The position numbers were made by a program, and so were the translations under genes. From positions 1-29,810 of IMG/VR virus record IMGVR_UViG_3300025127_000172: a stretch of 29,810 bases of DNA; one strand, written 5' to 3'. Below, piece by piece: positions 1,125 to 19,387 of this stretch. This DNA is from a virus. The notes beneath the pieces are model-generated. The model searched no databases. It was given only the letters and a program-made list of their open reading frames with translations, and was not told where the DNA came from. Positions within the stretch are counted from its first letter, which is position 1, and each line of letters opens with the position of its first letter.

Positions 1125-1139
1125 AAGGGACACAGTTGA

Positions 1140-1215
1140 GTTGGTAGCTGTGCTGGGTGCAACCAAACGAGTTTTTTCAACGAGTTTGCACCCCACAGCC
1201 AACCAACCTGTGGGG
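1140..1215. promoter_or_regulatory. Nested, mutually exclusive GC-rich hairpins in the divergent intergenic region
   Basis: Hairpin A is long and slightly imperfect: GTTGG, CTGTG and GGGTGCAA (1140-1162) pair with TTGCACCC, CACAG and CCAAC (1186-1203), with a loop that contains AACTCGTT-type repeats in inverted and direct form. Hairpin B is perfect: CCCCACAG (1191-1198) pairs with CTGTGGGG (1208-1215) over a 9-nt loop. The segment 1191-1198 is shared, so only one can form at a time. A third G-rich/C-rich pairing (GGGTG near 1215 with CACCC near 1235) is possible. No T-run follows on either strand, so this is not a simple terminator. It may be an RNA switch, a DNA binding site or a replication or packaging structure. 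Confidence 0.5.
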
Positions 1216-1310: not shown

Positions 1311-1505
1311 ATGAAGTTTGAACGATGGAATAAGGATACAAATAAGTTTGAACTGGTTGAATTATCACCAGAAGAGTTTGAAGAACTCCTGGCTGGTTTT
1401 TCTATTGCAGAATGTGAATGCCTTATCGAAGACAGAATAGAGGCTATGGTAACGGAAGTAAGGCTTATTTTAGACGAAAACAAATTTTTTTACAAATATG
1501 ATTAA
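1311..1505 (+). CDS. 64-residue acidic hypothetical protein
   Basis: I use ATG 1311; an upstream in-frame TTG at 1305 adds two residues. No Shine-Dalgarno sequence is visible before either. The protein is strongly acidic and helical in its middle (ELSPEEFEELLAGF) and ends in an aromatic, charged tail (ENKFFYKYD). No family is recognised. It is flanked upstream by the hairpin region and downstream by the CTACAGTA repeat cluster. It could be a small regulator acting on these sites, but that is only suggested by position. The opposite strand is also open here, but that frame has a Ser/Pro-rich, unlikely product. Confidence 0.6.
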   Translation: MKFERWNKDTNKFELVELSPEEFEELLAGFSIAECECLIEDRIEAMVTEVRLILDENKFFYKYD

Positions 1506-1512
1506 AAAAGTG

Positions 1513-1543
1513 TTGACAAACCCCCTATTACAGTTGTTTTTTA
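1513..1543 (+). promoter_or_regulatory. Consensus -35 box upstream of the late operon
   Basis: A perfect TTGACA occurs at 1513-1518, just after the stop of the 64-residue gene. The expected -10 position (about 1536-1542) holds only GTTTTTT, so the -10 is poor. The initiation point would fall on the first palindrome of the repeat cluster. This could be a promoter that needs an activator or is blocked by a repressor bound to the repeats. Confidence 0.35.
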
Positions 1544-1629
1544 ACAGTAGTAGTACTACTACAGTAATGTTAGACTGTTATATATATATACACTACTGTA
1601 ATGTAGACTACAGTAGTAGTACTACAGTA
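1544..1629. repeat. CTACAGTA palindrome/direct-repeat cluster with TA-rich core
   Basis: The 16-bp perfect palindrome GTAGTAGTACTACTAC lies at 1547-1562. A shorter version, GTAGTACTAC, lies at 1616-1625. The 16-mer ACAGTAGTAGTACTAC occurs at both 1544 and 1610, 66 bp apart. ACTACAGTAATGTTAGACT (1557-1576 region) recurs as ACTACTGTAATGTAGACT at 1592-1609. ACTACTGTA (1592-1600) and TACAGTAGT (1609-1617) form an inverted repeat. CTACAGTA occurs three times, the last ending on the A of the ATG at 1629. Between the two halves lies an alternating TA tract (1579-1590). The layout resembles an operator array or replication origin. It could also be the small-terminase recognition site, since terS is about 450 bp downstream. 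Confidence 0.75.
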
Positions 1630-1916
1630 TGAAGGTCACCTTCAAACAGGGAAGAAAACACCCCAAAGACAAGATAGTCTTGTATAATAATGTCCCCATG
1701 ACGTTTTATGACTGGATATTGATGGGATTACAGTTTTTTAAGAATGAGGACAACATTTATCCCCCACCAGCACAAGGTGGTAAGTATTTATTAAAAGCTT
1801 TAATAGAGATATGCCTTAAAGGACATATGGATACTGAAACCTTAAACCGATACAAGATACCAATACCACCCAATGAAAGCCATAGCCACCCTAATAAGCC
1901 TGTTAGTCCTCTCTGA
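1629..1916 (+). CDS. 95-residue hypothetical protein, first gene of the late operon
   Basis: ATG 1629 lies at the very edge of the repeat cluster and has no Shine-Dalgarno sequence, so a protein bound to the last repeat would cover the start codon. The N-terminus is basic (KQGRKHPKDK). The middle is hydrophobic and aromatic (FYDWILMGLQFF) without being a clear membrane span, and the C-terminus is Pro/His-rich and looks disordered. No family is recognised. The last 44 nt overlap the next gene in another frame. Its position ahead of the terminase genes suggests a packaging-associated or regulatory role, which remains inference. Confidence 0.6.
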   Translation: MKVTFKQGRKHPKDKIVLYNNVPMTFYDWILMGLQFFKNEDNIYPPPAQGGKYLLKALIEICLKGHMDTETLNRYKIPIPPNESHSHPNKPVSPL

Positions 1917-2106: not shown

Positions 2107-2833
2107 CGATTGGCAAGATGTTACATACCTTGTTATGACGGAAAAAGAGGCAAAAGACAAGGATTTGGAATATGTTCATTGGAAAGATGCCCAAAAAGGG
2201 GATTTATGCCTTTCAGATGACGGATATGTAACCAATTGTATAGATAGAAAGCAATATAAGAATGCTGAACAGGTAATAACGCCATATGGTAGAATGTGGA
2301 TTAGTAAACGAGCTAAGCTTTTGTACGAACCTCATCGAAATACAGGCGAATATTCTCAATGTGGCACTCTGACATGGGAAGAACGAGAAAGTCGCACTAC
2401 ACGTACAAAAAACGCTGTAAATCTATATGTACAGATGATGATGCAGACTGGAAAAATAGACTGGTATCAATTAGGTAAAGTATATAGGGCTGACCAACAA
2501 TCCCCAGATGCAACAGTAAAAAGATTATTTAAAACAGAGAAGGTGAAATTAATGGTTGACCAGAAAATTCAAGACTATTTAGATGAAAGAGACATGAATC
2601 AAGGAGATGTGCTTGATATTATCTCTGAAGCTATTGAATTAGCCAAGAATAACGGAGACCCTAGCAATATGCTACGTGGTGCAGAGCAATATATACGAAT
2701 TATGGATATGTTGCCCTCTAAAAACACACAAACAGATACACTACAAATTGATGTAACAAAAAAGATACTAGACGAGATAGAAACAGAAGAATCACGTCAG
2801 TTAACGCTTGAAAGGAAAACGGATGAAGTATGA
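2075..2833 (+). CDS. terS: Putative terminase small subunit with an extra N-terminal module
   Basis: Small terminase recognises phage DNA and loads it onto the large subunit for packaging. Residues about 108-210 fit the family layout: a helical segment with a helix-turn-helix-like stretch (QLGKVYRADQQSPDATVKRLF), then a central oligomerisation helix ending in a pattern typical of these proteins (ISEAIELAKNNGD... LRGAEQYIRIM). The C-terminus (about 215-252) is charged and could contact TerL. The first 100 residues are a separate Trp/Asp-rich module (YVHWKDAQKGDLCLSDDGY) not normally part of small terminases. It lies two genes upstream of the large subunit, as expected. Identification rests on position and pattern rather than an invariant motif. 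Confidence 0.65.
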   Translation: MDYITRKLKINDWQDVTYLVMTEKEAKDKDLEYVHWKDAQKGDLCLSDDGYVTNCIDRKQYKNAEQVITPYGRMWISKRAKLLYEPHRNTGEYSQCGTLTWEERESRTTRTKNAVNLYVQMMMQTGKIDWYQLGKVYRADQQSPDATVKRLFKTEKVKLMVDQKIQDYLDERDMNQGDVLDIISEAIELAKNNGDPSNMLRGAEQYIRIMDMLPSKNTQTDTLQIDVTKKILDEIETEESRQLTLERKTDEV

Positions 2834-3021
2834 AGTTGGTAATCGAAAAAGAAAAGCAAAGACCAAACCCAAAAGAAAAAAGACACGTAATAGTCGAAGC
2901 AAATCCAAAAGATATTAAAAAGCTTGAGTCATTTATACGTGTAATGCAAGATGTGGCAGAAGATATGGGTTTACACGCCTATCCAGACACAACTGAGTAT
3001 TTAATGGGTGCAGACTATTGA
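2830..3021 (+). CDS. 63-residue basic hypothetical protein
   Basis: Starts at ATG 2830 with an ATGA overlap on the terS stop, so it is probably made by translational reinitiation. It is Lys-rich at the N-terminus (MKLVIEKEKQRPNPKEKRH), followed by a predicted beta strand and a helix (PKDIKKLESFIRVMQDVAEDMG). No signal or membrane segment is visible and no family is recognised. Its place between the two terminase subunits suggests a DNA-packaging accessory role, but the sequence does not show this directly. Confidence 0.65.
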   Translation: MKLVIEKEKQRPNPKEKRHVIVEANPKDIKKLESFIRVMQDVAEDMGLHAYPDTTEYLMGADY

Positions 3022-3338
3022 AAAAAGGCATTTATATATTTTTTGCCTTATCGCTGTTTACTTGCCAGGAAATAATTGTAGAAAAAGAAGAAATACCTTT
3101 TGAAATATATTATTCTTCAGTTAGTGTATGCGATTGCTATAAAAGTGGAATGTCTGTGTTAACTGGTCTTCTTAGAACAGAAAACAATAGTTATAGAACA
3201 TTGTTTCAAGAATTACGTATGAATTGTTTAACAAAGTATGGTACACAGTTATTTACCCCATCGTTATGCAATTTTCCAGATAGTCTTCAAATGCTACAAG
3301 ATAGTTTATATATGTTAGGAATTGATATTAATGGATAA
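3018..3338 (+). CDS. 106-residue lipoprotein-like exported protein
   Basis: Likely starts at TTG 3018, which overlaps the previous stop (TTGA). No good in-frame ATG exists before residue 45. The N-terminus (MKKGIYIFFALSLFTCQ) is a classic short signal: two Lys, ten hydrophobic residues, then Cys16. Leu at -3 fits a lipobox, but Thr at -1 is unusual. The mature part has six Cys including CDC and starts with an acidic stretch (VEKEEIPFEIYY). Several Cys suggest a disulphide-bonded exported protein. It is the second such protein in the packaging operon (see 1873-2106). A superinfection-exclusion or host-envelope role is possible but unproven; spanin subunits seem less likely given the distance from the lysis genes. 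Confidence 0.6.
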   Translation: MKKGIYIFFALSLFTCQEIIVEKEEIPFEIYYSSVSVCDCYKSGMSVLTGLLRTENNSYRTLFQELRMNCLTKYGTQLFTPSLCNFPDSLQMLQDSLYMLGIDING

Positions 3339-4815
3339 AAGAGAACATAAGGATATTCTTCAGAAGTTACGTGCAGATATGATGTTATTTGGAAAAGTAT
3401 GCATTCCCAATATGTTTTCTGCAAAATCACCAGACTTTCACTATGACTTAGCAAAACATATTACTGATTATAGCAATAAGCAGATAAATATTATTGCTCC
3501 AAGAGGTCATGCTAAATCTTCTATAGTAGGTGGTATTTTGCCTATGCATCATCTTATGTTTGGAGAAGGGAAAAAATTAATTGTTTTATGCTCCAGAACC
3601 CAAGACCACGCTGTTAAACTGTTAGGATTAATTAAAGATACGCTGGATTATAGCGAATCCATGAGACAGTTGTTTGGGTATTGGGGGTCTCATTCAGCTA
3701 AAAGCTGGGCAAAGACAGAAATTGAACTGAAGGATGGGTCTATGGTGCTGTGCAAAGGGACAGGTCAGCAGTTAAGAGGAATAAAAATAGGGAACCAGAG
3801 ACCTACGCTCATCATCGTAGATGACCCAGAGGATGAAAATAATACCAAAACAGCCGAGGCGATGGAGTCGAATTTAAGATGGTTGCTACAATCGGCTGTT
3901 CCTTCAGTAGACCCACGTAAAGGTAGATTGATTATCATTGGAACACCACAACATGAAAGATGTATGGTAGAAACCTTAAAAGAAATGAAGGGATGGAAGA
4001 ATCTGGAATACAAACCAGACATGAATAAGGGAGTTGCTTTATGGGAAGATTGGTGGTCTATTAAGAAATTAAAAGAAAAAATGGCTGAATTGGAGTCTAT
4101 TAACAGGTTATCTGTATTCTATCGAGAGTATATGTGTGAGATTGTTGGAGATGAAGACCAGTTGTTTAAAGCAGATGACTTTAGGTGGTATAAAGGGGAA
4201 GTGCATTTGGATAGTCAACGCCAAGCGTATATAAACATGACAGAACCAGAGCAAAGGCAAATCCCTATAAATATTTTCACAGGAGTAGACCCAGCGAGTT
4301 CTACGAAACAGACAGCAGATTATAGTGTGATATTCAATATTGGTGTGGATGCAGACGGAAATCGGTATGTATTGCCTTATTATAGGAAAAGGGCTACTCC
4401 TTTGAATTTAGCAGAGGCTATTGTAGATAACTTTAGAAAGTATCGTTCACAAAAAACTCGAATTGAAAGCGTAGGATATCAAGAGATGCTACGTGAATAT
4501 GTGATTAAAAGGTGCGAACAAGAGAATTTGTTCATTCCTGGCTTAAATGTAAAAGAAAATCCCAGAACCAATAAGTCACGTAGACTGGAATCACTTCAAC
4601 CTATCTTCGCAAGAGGTCAAGTCCACATGGACAGGAATATGCAAGATTTGGTTAATGAACTACTATTATTTCCAAGAGGAAAGCACGATGACCTTTTGGA
4701 TGGTTTTTATTACGCCAATAAAGGATGTTATGAACCTCATCACGAAACACAGGAAGAACAAAAACACGTATTAGGCATGAATATGAGAAAGGTTGTGGAT
4801 TGGATGACAGCTTAG
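3331..4815 (+). CDS. terL: Terminase large subunit (ATPase and nuclease)
   Basis: The packaging motor protein translocates DNA into the prohead and cuts it. I start at ATG 3331 with AGGA 10 nt upstream, rather than TTG 3322; this gives 494 residues, a normal length. The Walker A-type loop APRGHAKS lies at about 56-63, Walker B LIIVDDPED at 160-168 and the coupling motif IIIGTP at 201-206. The C-terminal RNase H-like nuclease shows GVDPAS (Asp320), RIES (Glu379) and HDD (453-454), the three acidic metal ligands. The family is that of phage terminases with a TIGR01630-type C-terminal domain. Its start overlaps the upstream gene by 8 nt, so it is part of the same transcript. Identification is secure from the motifs alone. 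Confidence 0.96.
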   Translation: MDKREHKDILQKLRADMMLFGKVCIPNMFSAKSPDFHYDLAKHITDYSNKQINIIAPRGHAKSSIVGGILPMHHLMFGEGKKLIVLCSRTQDHAVKLLGLIKDTLDYSESMRQLFGYWGSHSAKSWAKTEIELKDGSMVLCKGTGQQLRGIKIGNQRPTLIIVDDPEDENNTKTAEAMESNLRWLLQSAVPSVDPRKGRLIIIGTPQHERCMVETLKEMKGWKNLEYKPDMNKGVALWEDWWSIKKLKEKMAELESINRLSVFYREYMCEIVGDEDQLFKADDFRWYKGEVHLDSQRQAYINMTEPEQRQIPINIFTGVDPASSTKQTADYSVIFNIGVDADGNRYVLPYYRKRATPLNLAEAIVDNFRKYRSQKTRIESVGYQEMLREYVIKRCEQENLFIPGLNVKENPRTNKSRRLESLQPIFARGQVHMDRNMQDLVNELLLFPRGKHDDLLDGFYYANKGCYEPHHETQEEQKHVLGMNMRKVVDWMTA

Positions 4816-4860: not shown

Positions 4861-7074
4861 ATGCCTTTAGAAGTAAATCCAGAAGTAACAAAATCCGAAG
4901 ACCTTCTCCATGACTATCATGCTCAGCGTTCAGAATGGGCTTCACAAGCCATGGAAGACGATGAGTTTCGCAACAATTCCCAATGGACACCTACACAGGT
5001 AAAGGTATTAAAGGGCAGAGCACAAAGCCCTATTACAGATAATGTAGTTCATCCAGCAGTTGAACAAGCAAAAGCACTCTTAACTGCAAACAAACCCAAG
5101 TTTCAATCTACAGGAAGAGATGATAGTGATACAAAAGTTGGAAGGCTTTTTTCAGATATCATGTCGTATATATGGGATATCTCTAATGGAAACGGAGAAT
5201 TAAAACAGGTTATTGATGATTACTACGTAAAAGGGATGGGGGCTATGGTAGCCTATGTAGACCCAATGATGGATTTTGGCAGAGGAGAAGTCTGCATAAA
5301 GTCTATAGACCCATTTGATTTATTTATTGACCCAGCATCTAGGGATACATTTTGTAAAGATGCAAGTAACATTCTTATTTCTAAAGTTTTAACAGAGGAG
5401 CAAGTCAAAAATGCCTATCCACAAGTAATGCAACCAGATGAAGAAGGCAATACTCTTCTGCAATCTATGACAATGAGTTCAGATACAAACTATCCAATTT
5501 CTCAAAGAGATAGTACAACTCTTGACCAACAAATTGGGCCAACTCCTAACGAGTCTGATTCAAAAACATATCAAGTAATAGACCGATATGAAAAGGTTCA
5601 ATTACCTTTTTGGCATTGCATGGATACAACCAATGGGAATGAATTTATTCATTCAGATGAAGACTACGCTGAATTCTTACAGCAACCAGCAGTTATTGTT
5701 GAGTCTTCAAATGGTATTCAGCACGTTACGGACAAATACAAAGTCCAAGAAATATTACAAATGTATGAACAGTTAGGTTCTGTCTTCCATTTAAGACTAG
5801 ACCCCCAAACAGGTCAACCTACCCCTGTATCTGGTGCTGAGCCAGAAGGTGAAGATGAAACTGTTATACCAGAATCCACTACAGAAATAACGCCTATAAC
5901 TATCCAAGAATTAGAGGCAAAGGGAATTGTTGTTTGCAACAAGGTATTAGTAGATAGGATAAAACGTGTGCTTTCAGTTGGAAGGGCTTTATTGGCAATG
6001 CAGATAATGGATATAGACGAATATCCAATTGTTACGCTGATGAATAGGCATAATAGAAATCCATATCCCATGAGTGATGTGCGATTTATAAAGCCAATCC
6101 AAGAATATATAAATAAGATAACGTCACTTATTATTGCTCACGCTAGTTCTTCGACAAACACTAAGCTACTTATACCAAGAGGCTCAATGAACAGAAGGCA
6201 ACTCGAAGAAGAATGGTCAAGAGCTGGTACTGGCGTTATTGAATATGACCCAGAACTAGGACAACCTATTGTCGCTGGGCCAGTCCCTTTGCCTAACGAA
6301 TTATACAAGAACAGAGAAGATGCTAAACAATCTATTTATCACATACTTGGTATCCATCCACTTCAGAGTGGTGACCCAAGTTCTGCCCCAGCTACATACA
6401 AAGGTACTGTGGCTATTGACGAGTATGCACAACGTAGGATTAAATCTAAGCTGGATGATATTGATGGGATGCTTAACCAGATGGGGAAGGTAGTTGTAAA
6501 CCTAATCCAACAGACATACACAGATGAAAAAGTAATTCGTCTAATGAAGCCAGATGGTACTGAGACAGAACAAACATTAAATGGCCCTATATATGATGAT
6601 TTAACCAATGAGTTAATTGGAAGAGTGAATGATGTCACAATAGGGCAATATGATTTAATTGTAGTAAGTGGCTCCACATTGCCATCCAATAGATGGGCAA
6701 GATTTGATTATTACATGAACCTTTACGAAAAGGGAATAATTGACCAACAAGAAGTACTTAAACAGACAGAAGTTGCAGATACGGAAGGCGTTCTCAAGAG
6801 GACGAGCATTATTAACCAGTTACAAGCACAAGTTCAACAGCAAGAAGAACAAATCAAAGAACTGGAAGGAGACCTTCAAACAGCACAAAGAGAATCTGTC
6901 TCAGATAGGAAAAAAGTTGAAATTGAAAAATTCAAGACCAAGCTAACGAATTCAGCAAACAAAACGGAAAAAGCAAGTCAATTGTACGAAGCACGTTTGC
7001 AAGATGAACTTAGCAAAGTCAAAGATGAAAACAGGGAAATACAAGCACAACAAATAAACCCAGTTGCTGTCTAA
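4861..7074 (+). CDS. Portal protein
   Basis: The portal is a 12-fold ring at one capsid vertex through which DNA enters and leaves. The 737-residue protein has the usual portal flow: an N-terminal region with the SIDPFDLFIDP segment (near 150-160), a central stem-region stretch (YINKITSLIIAHASSSTN) followed by PRGSM, and a C-terminal Gln/Glu/Lys-rich coiled coil (about 655-725). Such long coiled-coil C-termini resemble the barrel extension of P22-type portals. It follows TerL and precedes the scaffold, as expected. No Shine-Dalgarno sequence is seen before ATG 4861, and the 45-nt gap upstream holds only a short GTGT/ACAC hairpin. The large size favours a podovirus portal. Confidence 0.88.
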   Translation: MPLEVNPEVTKSEDLLHDYHAQRSEWASQAMEDDEFRNNSQWTPTQVKVLKGRAQSPITDNVVHPAVEQAKALLTANKPKFQSTGRDDSDTKVGRLFSDIMSYIWDISNGNGELKQVIDDYYVKGMGAMVAYVDPMMDFGRGEVCIKSIDPFDLFIDPASRDTFCKDASNILISKVLTEEQVKNAYPQVMQPDEEGNTLLQSMTMSSDTNYPISQRDSTTLDQQIGPTPNESDSKTYQVIDRYEKVQLPFWHCMDTTNGNEFIHSDEDYAEFLQQPAVIVESSNGIQHVTDKYKVQEILQMYEQLGSVFHLRLDPQTGQPTPVSGAEPEGEDETVIPESTTEITPITIQELEAKGIVVCNKVLVDRIKRVLSVGRALLAMQIMDIDEYPIVTLMNRHNRNPYPMSDVRFIKPIQEYINKITSLIIAHASSSTNTKLLIPRGSMNRRQLEEEWSRAGTGVIEYDPELGQPIVAGPVPLPNELYKNREDAKQSIYHILGIHPLQSGDPSSAPATYKGTVAIDEYAQRRIKSKLDDIDGMLNQMGKVVVNLIQQTYTDEKVIRLMKPDGTETEQTLNGPIYDDLTNELIGRVNDVTIGQYDLIVVSGSTLPSNRWARFDYYMNLYEKGIIDQQEVLKQTEVADTEGVLKRTSIINQLQAQVQQQEEQIKELEGDLQTAQRESVSDRKKVEIEKFKTKLTNSANKTEKASQLYEARLQDELSKVKDENREIQAQQINPVAV

Positions 7075-8011: not shown

Positions 8012-9328
8012 ATGGCTACAACAGATACTACAGTAGTAGGGGCTAAGAATCTTGGCTCAAGTGGCGTACTCTATGACGAAAGAAGAGACTTTTACATTAG
8101 CCCACAGGTTGTTAAAGAACTTTGGACGGATGTAGCACCTTTTCTTACTGTCGTTGCTAATCAAAACACGATTAGTGGTATGGCTGACCCTACTTTCAAA
8201 ATGTTTGAACACAGAAACCCATGGCAAAAGCAAGAGCTAACAGTCGATGCTACTCTTGCTGACAAAGTTGCTTCAGCAGAAGGATTAGTCGTTGGAAAAA
8301 ACCTAATTGGTTTAGAATGCGAAGTTTGGAGTGACTCAGTTGCAGAAGCAGAAGGTGAAGCTTTTGTAAATGACAACCTTAAAAATGAGGGTGTTATTTT
8401 GATTACTGGAATCAATGCTGATGGTACTGCTATGACTTACGAAACTCTATCTTCAGATGCAATAACAGTAAAGGTAGGCGATAAGCTTTCCGTTATTGGT
8501 AATGCACAGGCTGAAGGAAGTGGCTCACCAGTCGCTTGGAGCGATGATTTATCAGTCGTCTTCAACCAATGCCAGATTTTCAAAACACCAGTAGAAGTAA
8601 CTGGAACATTGTTACAGGCTTCTCTACGTGGAGAATCAAAGGAATTGGCTAGACTTCGTGACCAGAAGGCTTCTGAGCATAAGATTCAAAAAGAAAGAGC
8701 TTTTCTATTTGGGGCAAACCCAAAAGGAATTGAATCTGGATTTGCTCAATTGGAAGATGTTTCAATTGATGGAATGGCTGTTCGTACAACAATGGGTATC
8801 ATCCCAGCGTTGGAAAAGCACGGAGTTTCTGATGCTAACTCATATTCTCAGAATATCTTTGGCATAGATAGTTCTAGCAATGGTGGTTATGACTACAAAT
8901 CGTTTGTAGAGCAAATGGAAAAAGTATTCCAGTATGTACCAACTGCTGGAATGAAACGAGCCTTTGTAGGTGCTGGTGCTCTTGGGTACTGGTCTACACT
9001 TGGGCCAGACAACTCTTTCTCTAAGAATTCTGGCTGGGAAGTCGGTCTTTCTGATATGAAGAGAGATGCTCTTGGTTTTAACTACAGAATGCTTGAAACA
9101 CCTCATGGAATGTTGCAGTTGATTCCAACTCCAGCTTTACGTGGAAGGTACAACAAGTATATGCTAGTTGTAGATGACTCGAATCTGTTCCATGCTCAGT
9201 ATAGAGCACCACAGTTTCAAGCTTCTATCCAAGCAAATGATGCTGATATTGTGAAAGACCAGTATATGTCTGATGAAGGCATTGGTATTTCAATGATTGA
9301 ATCTCATTCATTGTTCAAAATATACTAA
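8012..9328 (+). CDS. Major capsid protein
   Basis: This 438-residue protein forms the head shell. It is assigned by place (after the scaffold), an excellent AGGAGG site 6 nt before ATG, and a composition typical of capsid proteins. It begins with a short arm, then a region rich in beta strands with an insertion of about 50 residues (near 110-165, GVILITGINADGTAMTYETL) that could be a surface domain. A conserved-looking core follows (PVEVTGTLLQASLRGESKE at about 195-215; RAFLFGANPKG at about 229-239). The opening codons contain ACTACAGTAGTAG, a 13-mer also found in the 1544-1629 cluster. A stable hairpin follows the gene. Confidence 0.88.
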   Translation: MATTDTTVVGAKNLGSSGVLYDERRDFYISPQVVKELWTDVAPFLTVVANQNTISGMADPTFKMFEHRNPWQKQELTVDATLADKVASAEGLVVGKNLIGLECEVWSDSVAEAEGEAFVNDNLKNEGVILITGINADGTAMTYETLSSDAITVKVGDKLSVIGNAQAEGSGSPVAWSDDLSVVFNQCQIFKTPVEVTGTLLQASLRGESKELARLRDQKASEHKIQKERAFLFGANPKGIESGFAQLEDVSIDGMAVRTTMGIIPALEKHGVSDANSYSQNIFGIDSSSNGGYDYKSFVEQMEKVFQYVPTAGMKRAFVGAGALGYWSTLGPDNSFSKNSGWEVGLSDMKRDALGFNYRMLETPHGMLQLIPTPALRGRYNKYMLVVDDSNLFHAQYRAPQFQASIQANDADIVKDQYMSDEGIGISMIESHSLFKIY

Positions 9329-12569: not shown

Positions 12570-12711
12570 TTTAGTAGATACAGAATTAAATATTTTAGTA
12601 CAAGCAATGGCAAGTGCTACCATAAAAGGGTCAAATGCTATTGAGTTTGGAAAGTTATTAGATAAACTGCAAAAAGCATTCGAGAAGGAAGTAGCTAAAC
12701 AAAATGGCTAG
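12559..12711 (+). CDS. 50-residue phage protein, paralogue of the previous gene
   Basis: I choose TTG 12559 because AGGAGG lies 4 nt upstream; a more upstream TTG (12490) in the same frame would give 73 residues with no ribosome site. The protein (DTELNILVQAMASATIKGSN, then KLLDKLQKAFEKEVAK) is two amphipathic helices. It shares the Asp-Thr-acidic start, the Ala-Ser pair, the central Gly and spacing with the C-terminal part of the preceding protein. It overlaps that gene by 11 nt and the giant fibre by 8 nt. It may help assemble the fibre made from the next gene, which is inference. Confidence 0.6.
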   Translation: MKVDLVDTELNILVQAMASATIKGSNAIEFGKLLDKLQKAFEKEVAKQNG

Positions 12712-15700
12712 TTATAAAAGAGTAATACTTAAATCAGATAATATATCTGAATTAACCAATGATGCTGGATATATCACATCAGTAGGTAGTGTATCATGGG
12801 GAGATATTAGTGGGAAGCCTAGTATCTTTATGCATGACTATGCTACTGTTACTGGTAATCCAACGTTTGCTGGTACAACCACATTTACTGGAGATATATA
12901 TACAAGTGGTCACATAAGACCAACAGATGGAGTTCTTACCTTATATGACAATACTAGTGGCTCATGGGGTAGATTATCTGCACAAGGAGTTAACCTTGGA
13001 GATTGGTATAGACAGCCTACTTATGGACAAATTGCTGTTGGTGCTTACACTTTTAGGGTATTTAAAGGAGATAGTAGTAGTTCTACAACATTAGTTAGCG
13101 TAAATCAATCTGGTGTTATGCAGTTAGGAGATGGTGGTAATTCTACTAATTGGAATACTGCATACAGTTGGGGAAACCATGCAAGTGCTGGATATTTAAC
13201 AGCAGTACCAAATGCCCTTGAACTAAAAACATCTAGTGGGCATATAAAGTTTTTTGATACAGACGAAGGTGATACAGCAGATTATTTTAGACTAGAAAAA
13301 GATGGTGGTAGACTGCGATTAGACTTCTACGATAATAGTGCTGGTGCATCAAGTAACAATATTTTTATGGTTGGAGATGATGGGCAAGTTAATGCTAAGT
13401 CATTTTTTGCAGATTCTCAAATGGCTATTGATGGAGTAGGGTTTAATAAAAGCAACCTACTGAATTGGAATACAGCGTATAGTTGGGGAGACCATAGAGA
13501 AGCTGGGTATTTAACTAGTCATCAAAGTTTATCCAATTATGCAACTTTAAATAGTACAAATACATTTACTGGAACAAATCTATTTAGAGACACAACAACA
13601 CAAATCCAAAACACTACAGCATGGAGTGGAAAAGCAACTTTAGGATTTAAAGTTACTGGAACTGGTAGTTCAGATTTTTATGGAGGTATTCAACTTACTA
13701 GGCAAGGTTCAAGTGGATATAACTCTCAGTTAGAATTTCAGACCTCTATATATAATAACAATTTAAGAACTGTTATGACTTTGAATTCTGCTGGTAGTTT
13801 GCATTTAGATGGAACTGTTTATGCCAATGGAGTAATTGGATTAAATAGTGGTGGATTTGCAATAGGTAGTATTGCGAGTTATAACAGAATAGATTTTCAA
13901 AGTGGTACATTTAGAACTCTATTTGCTAATGGTTCTATTGCACCCTTACAAACTGGTGACTTGAATGCATCAACGATTAATGCTTCTGAATCTACTTTTA
14001 CTACTAGAGTTAATACTGGACAAATACGATTTACAGATAGCAGTAAAACATCGTTTAATCATTTAAATGTAGCACAATGGGCAACAGCATATAACTGGGG
14101 CAATCACGCTGATGCTGGGTATTCAAAATTTAGTGGTTCATATGACGACCTAACTAATAAACCATCATTAGATGGAAACATAGTATACAATCAAAATATT
14201 CAACCATTAAGTATAAGACAGTATTGGGCAGATAGTACCCCTGCTGGAACACAATTTAACAATGCTTTTTCTGCACCTAATGGTTCTAGCACAAGGGCAG
14301 TTTATTTTGATGGTGGTGCTGGTACATCAGCTGTATCTACTTGGTATGGTGTAGCAAATAAGCCATATGGTGCAATAGATGTAAGTCAATCTTTTGTATC
14401 TATTTGGACAAACAATACTGCTGGTACTTGGAAAAGAATGCTTGATGCACTTGGTGATGGTTCTTTAGTTAGAGCCAATGTAAACTTTCAATCAACAGGT
14501 GTTATTACTGCAAATGGTGGAAATTCAGACCAATGGAACACAGCTTATGGTTGGGGCAATCATGCTGATGCTCGATATTTAACATCACACCAAAGTTTAG
14601 CTAATTACACAACTAAAGGCAGTAACATATCTCAGTTTGCAAATAACTCTGGATATTTAACCTCAAGTGACATTATTAATTGGTCTAGATATGCTGTAAT
14701 GAACGACACTAGAAGTACATTAATTGCACCTTATAGTGGTGGCAAACTTGCTAGATGGGATTTTAAATACAATAGTAAAGATGGATTAAATGATGGTGGT
14801 ACATATCATACAGTTTTACAAGTTAATCAATGGAGTGATAATAGTGGAGGTAAATGCCATCAACTAGGATTTACTGATAATAACAATGTATGGACAAGAG
14901 TTAATAGTAATGATTCTACATGGGGTTCATGGACTAGACTTGCTCTTGCTAGTGAAATACCTAGTTTATCTGGGTATGCAACTCAGTCTTGGGTAAACAG
15001 TCAAGGTTTCTTAAAGTCAGAAACAGATAGCCAGACTCTATCTATCTCTGGCAAGTCACTATCTATAAGTGGTGGTAATTCTGTAACATTACCATCTTAT
15101 AGCGATAGTGATGTTCGCAGTTTTATAGAAAGTGATGATGGTATTCGTGCTGTACGATTTGATTTCCAAAGTTATGACACATACTGGGATAGTGATGCTA
15201 CCAATTCAAAAGAAAACAATACCCCAATGTCTATTAAGTTATGGGATTCTTATAACAACCTAGCCAAAAGTGGAACAGACAGTTATGGTACAATACTAGA
15301 TATATATGGTCGTAGTGGGCATCAAAGAAATCAATTCTTTATGGGTAATAGTGGTTATATGTGGCATAGAAGTACATTTTATAATCAGGGTGGTTGGCAG
15401 AATTGGTACAAGTTTTGGTCAACAAAAAATTTAGAAGCAAATGTTGTAACCTCTCTTAGAGCAAACTACAATAAATGGCTAACAAGTCATCAAAGTTTGG
15501 CTAACTATGCCACTCTAAATGGTGTTCAAACTTTTTCAGCAAATAAAACTTTCAGTTCCAACCTATATGTAGGTGGCAATCTAGCAACAGATAGTATAAC
15601 AAATTACAGAGGTAGTCAACCAGTTACGCTAAATACTGATAAAGTAATTATTGGTAAAACTGGGATTCAATCTGTACCTAATAAACTTGTATTAAGAGGT

Positions 15701-18700
15701 CATTCTGTTCCATATAGTGGGGGTGGATATTTATCTGGAGAGGGTTGGTTAGAATTTGATAGCAATGTTTCTTGGACTGGTGCACAAAGAAGATGGGCAA
15801 TTACCAATGCTTATAATATGGGTGGTGGAGGAGCTGGAGAATTAGCGTTTCTAGTAGGAACTGATTCAGCTCAATATCCTACTTTGGGGACGAATGGTGC
15901 TTTATCATCTGTGGATGGAGAAAAGACAGTAGTAGGAATGAGGATAACTGGTGGTGGAGTTATTCATGCACGAACTGGTAATTCAGACAATTGGAACACA
16001 GCGTATGGTTGGGGCAATCATGCTAGTATTGGATATGCCACTTCATCAAATCCATATTTTACTGGTCACATAAGACTAACTGGTAGTGGTCGAATTATTG
16101 GTGGATTTGGTGCGGTAACTACTGCTGGAACTACAGATTGGAATCACGATACAAATGCAATTAGTGGTCAAGGATATACATTACTACTAGGTGGTGCTAC
16201 AAATGGTCATGGTTTTGATAATGATTACTACCATCCATTTAATTTTGAATATGCTAGAAATGATGGCTATGGTAACATGACTCAACTAGCTGTGCCTTAT
16301 AGTGGTAATGGGGCATTTGCTTTTAGGTCTCGTTATAATAATGTTTGGTCTAGTTGGAGAAGAATAATTGATACTGGCATCATATCTGCTTATGCTGATA
16401 AAACACCTTCATGGGTTCCAAGTTCAGACCCTGGTTATTTAACATCCTCTAGCACAATTAATGCAACGACATTAGGAAATATTGGCTTAAACCTAACTGG
16501 AGTTAATAATAATCCAAGTAAGGTTATGGCAACTGATGGAAATGGTTATGCAAACTTTGGCTGGATAAATACTACAAGTGGAAAATTTACTGGTACTCCA
16601 AATAGAATTTATGCATCAAGTGACCAGTACATGAGGTACATGACTCTTGAAGATTTTAGAGCTAGAATATTTGATGTATCTGGTGGTGGAGACAGTATAG
16701 GTACTACTGATGGTCAAAATTTTCATATTAAAACAAATGGTCAGTATAGAATATCTCTTACCAGTACTGGTGATATTGGTTTACTAGGCCCTACAATCCT
16801 TAAAACTAACAATACTAAATTACATGGAATAACAAGTGGTAGTGCAACTATAGGTTTAATAGGTGTTCGTTCAGACAATTGGATTGAGTTAGGAGAAAGT
16901 GGATTTAACCTAACAAGTAAAAGTCCTTTTTATGCTGAAGCTGATGCTTTTATACACAAAGCAACTCCTCAATTAGAGTTAAAAGATACTTCAAATAATG
17001 TTAGAGGATACATTGGAGTTAATAATGGTGTACTAAAAGTAGGTACTAAAGACAATGCTGGTTTTCATTTACAATCTAATGGAACTGATAGAGCAATTAT
17101 ATCAAATTCTGGTGATATTTCTTTAAAAGGTTATACAAGTATACAAAATCCTGGGAAAGGTTTATTTGTTCAAGCTGGTTATGAGTCTCCTTATACTCAA
17201 AATATTGCAGAGTTTAAATATGGTGGCAACAGTAACAGTATTATAATTAAAAATGTACTTGGTCAAGCAAGTATATCTACTAGTGGTACTAGTCTTCAAT
17301 TATCTGCAAATGATAATGTTGGTTTAACATTAAATACAAATAAAAGTGCAGTCTTTGGTGGTGCAGTTGAGTCTGGCAGTCATCATCCTAGTGGTGATAG
17401 TACTGTTGATTTAGGGCATTCTGGTGCTAGGTGGAGACAGATACACGCTACCTATATGTATACTACTAGTATTTCTGTAGATGGTAGGTCAGTTAGTGGT
17501 GCCACAATAGACAATATTGCTCTAGGTGTTGGTGCAAACAGTTGGGGTAATCATGCATCTGTTGGTTACTATAAGAATGGTAGTACAATCAATATTTCAA
17601 GCATGACAAATTCTGGCTCGTATGCAATGGCACACGATTTAGAAATGACCAAAAAATTATACATTGCATTTGACCATGGTACTGCCAATCAGAAAGCAAA
17701 TATATTCCTTGGTGGAGACAGATTTTGGGGAGAGATTATTGTAACTGTTGTTTCTGGTTACTCTCATCAAAATGCAAGTGGAGTTTTAAAAGTTTCTTAT
17801 GGTCTAGGATTAAATCAGAATGGTGGAGAATATTCTAATGGATATACTACTTTAGCTTGTTCTGGACAGACTCCAAGTAACTTTTCTTTAGATGATGCTT
17901 GGAGATATGATAGTGGTGCAAAGGCATGGTATTTGGTAATTAGCCATTTAAACGCTAATGGAAATCAAGCTTATATAACTTTAGAGGCTAAAGCAAGTGG
18001 AAATAGCAATCAATATATACATGATGCTATTAAAGGTTCATTTGCTGGTTCTGTTTATACCAATACTAATAACTACCCAAATAGAGGATTTCAATATAGC
18101 AATAGCTTTAACATTAAAGCACCTAACCTTTTATTAGGTAGTTATTTAAACGCTGATAAAACAACTAATGTTGGTTCAAATGCTAATGGTATAACGATTG
18201 TTGGAGAACACGCTCCTACATTAAGTCTTTGGGATACATCTAGTAGTGGATTTCATTCTCATGTTTACCAAGTAGGCTCAGATATGACATTACGTTCTAG
18301 TGGAACACTTAGCTTACAAGTGGCTGGTGGTACTAGGGCAATGAGACTTAACTCAGATAAGAGCGTAACCTTTGATGGTGAAATTACATCATCTATGTTT
18401 AGGCTTAATGGAACCTCTGGCTACCCTAGAATTAGACAAGATAGCGACAATTTTTATATAGATACTTATGCAAGAAGTTCAGCATTACAACTAACTAATG
18501 GGGGCAATCTTCAAGTAGAAGGTGGTAATGCTAGAATAATAGCAAAGGGCAGTAGTAATGGGTATGTAAATGGTGCTTTTGTTACTTCCTCTATTGACAT
18601 TAATAGAGGTGGTGGACTGTTCATGCACGATAGAGGCAATCAAAATGAATGGTTTTGTGGTAGACCTTATTCTAACAATGACCAATTTATTATTGCAAGA

Positions 18701-19387
18701 AATACTGGAGTAGCAGACCATTCTGGTGCAACAGCACAAGAAAGCAATGCAAGTTTTAAAATAGACAATAATGGTAATGTCTCTATTATTGCAAGTTCAC
18801 CTCAAACAAAATATGTAAATGCTAGTGGGACTACATTAGGGTATGTGTTTGGAAATTCAAATGGATTTGGCTTACTAGCAGATAGTGGACATTGGGCATA
18901 TAACATTACTGCAAATAGTACTCAGCATACTTGGAGTATAAGCAACGTTAATAAGTTGACGTTAACATCAACTGAACTAAGAATGGTTGGGCAAATTTCA
19001 GCTAGTGGTGGTAATAGTGCTAATTGGAATACAGCTTACGGATGGGGTGACCATTCTAAAGCTGGATACCAAACTGCTAGGTCTGATATAAGATTAAAAA
19101 CAAATATATCCACTATTGAGACACCCCTAGACAAGATTAGTAAACTTCGTGGCGTAACGTTTGATTGGAAAGAACATACCACTAAAAATACTGTTGATAC
19201 AGGTGGTGGTGTTATTGCACAAGAAGTTGAAAAAGTAATGCCAGAATTTGTCCATGATATTGGCAATGGTTCTGGAATGAAAACAGTAGACTATAACGGA
19301 TTGATAGGTGTGCTAATAGAATCTGTAAAAGAATTAAAAGAACAAGTTAATAATTGTAAATGCAACTGTAACTGTAAAGGAGATTAA
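12704..19387 (+). CDS. Giant tail fibre with Peptidase_S74 self-cleaving chaperone
   Basis: This 2227-residue protein is the main host-recognition fibre or spike. Seven copies of a repeat like NWNTAYxWGNHAxAGYL occur at about residues 148, 254, 458, 610, 1093, 1613 (degenerate) and 2106. Between them lie pyocin-knob-like modules with an aromatic end (for example TWGSWTRLALASE near 745, and NVWSSWRRIIDTG near 1215) and Gly/Ser/Asn-rich strands likely to form trimeric beta-helices. The C-terminal 101 residues are a Peptidase_S74 intramolecular chaperone. The expected self-cleavage is just before Ser2127 in SDIRLKTN (19082), with a Ser/Lys dyad, as in endosialidase tailspikes. Other chaperone landmarks are GVIAQEVEKVMPE and VDYNGLIGVLIESVKELK. 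The chain ends in a Cys/Asn/Lys tail, CKCNCNCK. Start ATG overlaps the preceding gene. Confidence 0.93.
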   Translation: MASYKRVILKSDNISELTNDAGYITSVGSVSWGDISGKPSIFMHDYATVTGNPTFAGTTTFTGDIYTSGHIRPTDGVLTLYDNTSGSWGRLSAQGVNLGDWYRQPTYGQIAVGAYTFRVFKGDSSSSTTLVSVNQSGVMQLGDGGNSTNWNTAYSWGNHASAGYLTAVPNALELKTSSGHIKFFDTDEGDTADYFRLEKDGGRLRLDFYDNSAGASSNNIFMVGDDGQVNAKSFFADSQMAIDGVGFNKSNLLNWNTAYSWGDHREAGYLTSHQSLSNYATLNSTNTFTGTNLFRDTTTQIQNTTAWSGKATLGFKVTGTGSSDFYGGIQLTRQGSSGYNSQLEFQTSIYNNNLRTVMTLNSAGSLHLDGTVYANGVIGLNSGGFAIGSIASYNRIDFQSGTFRTLFANGSIAPLQTGDLNASTINASESTFTTRVNTGQIRFTDSSKTSFNHLNVAQWATAYNWGNHADAGYSKFSGSYDDLTNKPSLDGNIVYNQNIQPLSIRQYWADSTPAGTQFNNAFSAPNGSSTRAVYFDGGAGTSAVSTWYGVANKPYGAIDVSQSFVSIWTNNTAGTWKRMLDALGDGSLVRANVNFQSTGVITANGGNSDQWNTAYGWGNHADARYLTSHQSLANYTTKGSNISQFANNSGYLTSSDIINWSRYAVMNDTRSTLIAPYSGGKLARWDFKYNSKDGLNDGGTYHTVLQVNQWSDNSGGKCHQLGFTDNNNVWTRVNSNDSTWGSWTRLALASEIPSLSGYATQSWVNSQGFLKSETDSQTLSISGKSLSISGGNSVTLPSYSDSDVRSFIESDDGIRAVRFDFQSYDTYWDSDATNSKENNTPMSIKLWDSYNNLAKSGTDSYGTILDIYGRSGHQRNQFFMGNSGYMWHRSTFYNQGGWQNWYKFWSTKNLEANVVTSLRANYNKWLTSHQSLANYATLNGVQTFSANKTFSSNLYVGGNLATDSITNYRGSQPVTLNTDKVIIGKTGIQSVPNKLVLRGHSVPYSGGGYLSGEGWLEFDSNVSWTGAQRRWAITNAYNMGGGGAGELAFLVGTDSAQYPTLGTNGALSSVDGEKTVVGMRITGGGVIHARTGNSDNWNTAYGWGNHASIGYATSSNPYFTGHIRLTGSGRIIGGFGAVTTAGTTDWNHDTNAISGQGYTLLLGGATNGHGFDNDYYHPFNFEYARNDGYGNMTQLAVPYSGNGAFAFRSRYNNVWSSWRRIIDTGIISAYADKTPSWVPSSDPGYLTSSSTINATTLGNIGLNLTGVNNNPSKVMATDGNGYANFGWINTTSGKFTGTPNRIYASSDQYMRYMTLEDFRARIFDVSGGGDSIGTTDGQNFHIKTNGQYRISLTSTGDIGLLGPTILKTNNTKLHGITSGSATIGLIGVRSDNWIELGESGFNLTSKSPFYAEADAFIHKATPQLELKDTSNNVRGYIGVNNGVLKVGTKDNAGFHLQSNGTDRAIISNSGDISLKGYTSIQNPGKGLFVQAGYESPYTQNIAEFKYGGNSNSIIIKNVLGQASISTSGTSLQLSANDNVGLTLNTNKSAVFGGAVESGSHHPSGDSTVDLGHSGARWRQIHATYMYTTSISVDGRSVSGATIDNIALGVGANSWGNHASVGYYKNGSTINISSMTNSGSYAMAHDLEMTKKLYIAFDHGTANQKANIFLGGDRFWGEIIVTVVSGYSHQNASGVLKVSYGLGLNQNGGEYSNGYTTLACSGQTPSNFSLDDAWRYDSGAKAWYLVISHLNANGNQAYITLEAKASGNSNQYIHDAIKGSFAGSVYTNTNNYPNRGFQYSNSFNIKAPNLLLGSYLNADKTTNVGSNANGITIVGEHAPTLSLWDTSSSGFHSHVYQVGSDMTLRSSGTLSLQVAGGTRAMRLNSDKSVTFDGEITSSMFRLNGTSGYPRIRQDSDNFYIDTYARSSALQLTNGGNLQVEGGNARIIAKGSSNGYVNGAFVTSSIDINRGGGLFMHDRGNQNEWFCGRPYSNNDQFIIARNTGVADHSGATAQESNASFKIDNNGNVSIIASSPQTKYVNASGTTLGYVFGNSNGFGLLADSGHWAYNITANSTQHTWSISNVNKLTLTSTELRMVGQISASGGNSANWNTAYGWGDHSKAGYQTARSDIRLKTNISTIETPLDKISKLRGVTFDWKEHTTKNTVDTGGGVIAQEVEKVMPEFVHDIGNGSGMKTVDYNGLIGVLIESVKELKEQVNNCKCNCNCKGD

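Follow-up and report, generated by a model that had tools for sequence, protein, structure and literature searches.

A conserved repeat array at the start of the late genes of uncultured marine phages, a possible multi-site operator of the late promoter

What is the role of the tightly packed repeats between positions 1544 and 1629 of the virus record IMGVR_UViG_3300025127_000172, just before the late genes? An earlier note on this DNA offered three options, namely, an operator array for a phage regulator, a replication origin, or the recognition site of the terminase. We analyzed the entire record (29,810 nt, hereafter the window) along with its relatives. Among these options, the operator fits best because the left edge of the array is locked to a promoter-like block, whereas the terminase-site option is weakened because a conserved element further upstream looks more like a packaging site and because the small terminase subunit (TerS) and the array show no clear joint change.

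This virus record of 29.8 kb encodes a portal of P22 type and a capsid protein of SU10 type, and represents a widespread group of uncultured, marine, bacterial viruses; the closest large terminase subunit (TerL) among phage isolates is about 25% identical, and no close isolate was found among the 50,697 phage records searched. Relatives were taken from IMG/VR, where we retained 80 loci whose TerL is about 69% identical or higher, and two further relatives came from genome records, a Flavobacteriales bin and a Prochlorococcus single-cell record. These TerL-carrying contigs (L128 from the Flavobacteriales MAG and L129 from the Prochlorococcus single cell) could be host hints or contamination, and are no proof of a host.

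In the longer relatives, the ORF layout shows minus-strand early genes and plus-strand late genes, running leftward and rightward, respectively, from the place of the array. The array itself opens the late side, with orf66 to its left and orf95 or terS to its right (Table 1). Many relatives are missing orf95, and there terS directly follows the array; in L057 (about 5020-5061), the array is followed by an apparent remnant of the orf95 start and then by terS, as if orf95 had been deleted. The early genes of the relatives encode a DnaB-like helicase and a Sak-like annealing protein, the others being without a known family. Structure prediction for the orf66 product gave a beta-hairpin and a long helix, and no DNA-binding fold was seen in the predicted structure. 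The probable TerS (orf252) has no Pfam family and no significant PHROG family, and its PDB matches are weak; likewise, the 63-residue protein encoded downstream (2830-3021) has no PHROGs family. The late operon also contains an ORF of 2227 aa (window 12704-19387).

Table 1 Features of the array region and the adjacent late genes in the window.
Feature	Position	Strand	Basis or remark
orf66, small acidic protein, 64 aa from ATG	1311..1505	+	Directly upstream of the promoter-like block; same place in relatives
Promoter-like block: TTGACA (1513-1518), 17-nt spacer, GTTTTT (1536-1541)	1513..1541	+	Consensus match
Site 1, inverted repeat AACAGTAGTAGTACTACTACAGTA	1543..1566	.	At the expected (predicted) transcript start
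Repeat ACTACAGTAATGT, overlapping the right arm of Site 1	1558..1570	.	Repeat family D6
(TA)6 tract, TATATATATATA, array centre	1579..1590	.	Read from the sequence
Repeat ACTACTGTAATGT, second copy, 34 bp from ACTACAGTAATGT	1592..1604	.	Repeat search
Site 2, ACTACAGTAGTAGTACTACAGTA, ending on the orf95 start codon	1607..1629	.	Repeat search and sequence
orf95, first gene after the array	1629..1916	+	ORF layout
Probable small terminase subunit (orf252), 252 aa	2075..2833	+	Position before terL; fold matches to viral small terminases
Large terminase subunit	3322..4815	+	phrog_38, E 1.2e-84; PF17289

No other 100-bp stretch of the window is as repetitive as the array: when the whole window was scanned for the density of repeated 8-mers, it scored 19 and the next region scored 5. 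As the earlier note had described, a 16-bp word, ACAGTAGTAGTACTAC, occurs twice, at 1544-1559 and at 1610-1625, 66 bp apart, in association with the perfect palindromes GTAGTAGTACTACTAC (1547-1562) and GTAGTACTAC (1616-1625); the central 12-bp TA tract, the TTGACA box upstream at 1513 and a last repeat ending on the start codon of the next gene, on the A of the ATG at 1629, are present as well. The two near-identical longer repeats, said to lie 35 bp apart, exist but are 13 nt long, that is, shorter than the 16-mer, with a spacing of 34 bp. The assertion that such ordered symmetry is unlikely by chance stands for the repeated word, with one of at least 16 nt seen in 3/2000 dinucleotide shuffles, but not for the single palindromes, given that one equal in length to the best was found in 151/2000; thus, it is the repetition that counts, whereas the single palindromes are unremarkable. 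A sequence resembling an array word, TACTACAGTAGTAG, is also found at about 8026-8039 of the window, inside the start of the capsid gene, and is probably a codon coincidence.

Conservation upstream of terS in related phages, the main check proposed for this array, was borne out: relatives that hold the region have inverted and direct repeats between orf66 and the next gene. Among 42 contigs selected on nothing but another DNA motif, situated some 300 bp 5' of the array, the most repetitive 100 bp falls at the array place in 33, and a score of at least 6 was reached at that place in 32, compared with 63 of 840 stretches drawn at random. These counts are not fully independent, given that each set includes contigs from related assemblies. 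The repeat score at the array place is low in a few relatives (e.g. L130, L149 and L179). In the recovered sequence of each genome, the array is present as a single copy.

The letters of the array drift by lineage and its palindromy is kept (GTAATGTATACATTAC, AGTATATATACT, ACATACTATAGTATGT, ACTGATGCGCATCAGT). The main clade is centred on GTARTGTAYAC, and other phages use AGTATATATACT, ACATACTATAGTATGT, TATAGTACTATA or ACTGATGCGCATCAGT. At the position of Site 1, relatives hold, for example, TACAGTAATGTATACATTACAGTA; at that of the second 13-nt repeat, main-clade relatives have a TATATACA[CT]TAC.GTA.TG-like sequence, and in place of the (TA)6 tract, many distant relatives have a near-perfect inverted repeat. 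Sites inside one phage resemble one another and hence change together; this joint change, combined with the kept palindromy, is how the sites of a single dimeric protein would behave.

The array begins immediately behind the promoter-like block, just 5' of which lies an A-tract (about 1504-1509). Most close relatives share a block of the form TTGNNN-N17/18-[GC]TTTTT, and in 32 of 32 loci with the block before the array, including the window, the first repeated array word starts no more than 5 nt from the end of the T-run (a match in L034, with a false T-run elsewhere, is left out of this count). Measured from the array, the next start codon is 63-207 nt away and the upstream conserved element 294-337 nt, both ranges being wider than that for the block. 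The block accompanies the array where orf95, orf77 or a longer gene (L013/L017) stands between the array and terS. From its consensus match, we predict that the block is a promoter, the [GC]TTTTT portion being a poor match to a -10 box; if so, the sites touch or overlap the promoter in all 32 loci, as in promoter-operator arrangements. Some distant relatives without the T-run block keep the array, in some cases directly after a TTGAAT-N17-19-TTATAT-like sequence, as judged by eye.

These features are compatible with the array serving the late promoter as an operator of several sites for a putative dimeric protein, a reading to which, judging from the sequence comparisons, we would give an even chance. 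Under this scenario, a dimeric DNA-binding protein, probably phage-encoded, would occupy the inverted repeats, which extend from the expected transcription start up to the first start codon, with possible cooperativity over the AT-rich or hairpin-like centre; it would thereby hold the late promoter, and with it the packaging and structural operon, off early in infection or time its use. Counting against this reading, Pfam and PHROGs searches recovered no known repressor or activator family among 53 early proteins of three relatives, most early proteins being without a known family. An early 68-aa protein (L091:15110-15316:+), kept in several relatives, appears histone-fold-like by eye and has no significant Pfam or PHROGs match.

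Phage operator arrays with several dimer sites resemble this one in having packed inverted-repeat sites at a promoter-like block near the early/late divergence; here, in contrast, no repressor or activator was identified, there is one array per recovered genome, and all sites lie downstream of the -35/-10-like block. The p4 sites of phi29 are also inverted repeats at the early/late divergence, are bound by a small phage DNA-binding protein, and are located between the early promoters and the late promoter A3 (PMC3100819), whereas the present sites follow the putative late promoter, and no protein resembling p4 was recognised. A literature search on the combined terms yielded no match. Two other kinds of site were considered and set aside. 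The LexA/SOS box has the form CTGT-N8-ACAG; judged by eye, CTGT and ACAG are spaced by 11-12 nt in the relatives, and the window array contains no CTGT-N8-ACAG. As to a site for a protelomerase or resolvase, neither gene was noticed among the genes looked at.

A more specific proposal, which we hold only tentatively, is that the array is a conserved late-switch element, with letters diverging by lineage within a held architecture, that would be read by an undescribed family of regulators. If this is true, the palindromic letters of the element would constitute a lineage-specific recognition code. The likely switch from early to late genes is thus located in a phage group without a close isolate among the phage records searched. 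The array also provides a defined 90-bp bait for finding the putative binding protein, and natural array variants with different letters allow tests of which protein reads them.

The terminase-site option takes its most developed form if the array is the binding region of TerS, analogous to the lambda cosB, and a non-coding element at about 1165-1275, some 300 bp before the array, is the cut or start site, analogous to cosN, such that TerS bound to the palindromes would position TerL on the upstream element. This element (TTTTCAACG...GGGGGTnGG...TATATCnCnCACnCnCATTCTA...AATTTT) is better conserved in sequence than the array, with its core found in 70 of 86 loci (at most 5 mismatches), nearly always once. 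It overlaps, in its left part, a long imperfect hairpin (window 1131-1212), and the 1130-1275 region folds better than shuffles (z = -3.4 for the plus strand and -4.1 for the minus strand); no covariation was detected in an alignment of 35 sequences of the element. There is a clustering of contig ends at the element, with 5 of 34 within 60 bp upstream of its core motif against 0.3 expected if the ends were uniform, an excess that is only suggestive, given that the collections favour late-gene contigs and that a GC-rich hairpin could break assemblies. We regard the element as a better candidate for the packaging site than the array. The relatives keep the order of conserved element, array and terS, and lambda-like phages show conservation of cosQ and of the nick site's left half, whereas cosB differs in structure and specificity (PMC4669245). 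Lambda-like cos regions (cosN-cosB-terS) share with this locus a conserved element, repeats with lineage-specific letters and terS (PMC4669245). Here, however, orf66 sits between the element and the repeats, the repeats keep a fixed place behind the promoter-like block, and most contigs extend through the array as well as the element.

Covariation of TerS and the array is not clear either. With TerL held constant, array divergence correlates with that of the TerS HTH region at 0.01 and with that of the TerS N-terminal region at 0.22; the latter weak partial correlation counts against the operator and may point to TerS, although linkage between the array and terS is a confounder, and permutation tests on distance matrices tend towards high values when the sequences are related. 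The comparison of L043 with L062 and L065, in which the N-terminal and HTH regions of TerS differ by 22-29% (71-78% identical) and the arrays are 89-93% identical, argues mildly against TerS as the binder. Pairs involving L008, L019 and L020 were invalid for such pairwise identities, as each of these contigs begins within orf95 or shortly before it and therefore lacks the array. The pair L004 and L057 (TerS 93% identical, letters different) was dropped as a strong case against TerS because both arrays share the core GTARTGTAYAC. Overall, we consider it unlikely that the array is the TerS binding region, although this is the foremost of the alternatives to the operator.

Somewhat less probable still is a replication origin, with initiator-bound repeats alongside an AT-rich tract for unwinding and perhaps with priming from the neighbouring promoter. 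The array is single-copy, has a TA tract or an AT-rich centre, and lies near the cumulative GC-skew minimum in the window and three relatives. The skew change anticipated at 1544-1629 was not found there, however: the turn is at 1294, about 250 bp before the array, nearer to the early/late divergence point and the upstream element, and is explained by the strand-biased gene order. The GC content of the array (29%) is only moderately below that of the window (37%). In comparison with iteron origins, the array includes direct and inverted repeats, mostly palindromic, and a TA tract, but no initiator was recognised; the putative recognition helix of a winged-helix-like early protein is identical in G018, G001 and G005, phages whose site letters differ.

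The array could also act as RNA, forming a hairpin leader that governs how the first late gene is translated or how stable its transcript is. Its place would be the 5' leader, and it reaches a start codon, that of orf95, that is not preceded by a Shine-Dalgarno sequence; in distant relatives the centre has complementary arms of 11-14 bp with changes on both sides. Nevertheless, the folding energy of the window array is no better than that of shuffles (z = +0.49), the best Rfam matches are far under the gathering scores, and the locally palindromic words fit double-stranded DNA sites better. We therefore find an RNA leader improbable and rank it last, after the late-promoter operator, the TerS site and the origin, leaving the remainder to other explanations. 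In the Flavobacteriales-binned contig (L128, about 5100-5170), an inverted repeat with 12-bp arms, ACAAACGTAATG...CATTACGTTTGT, replaces the multi-copy array.
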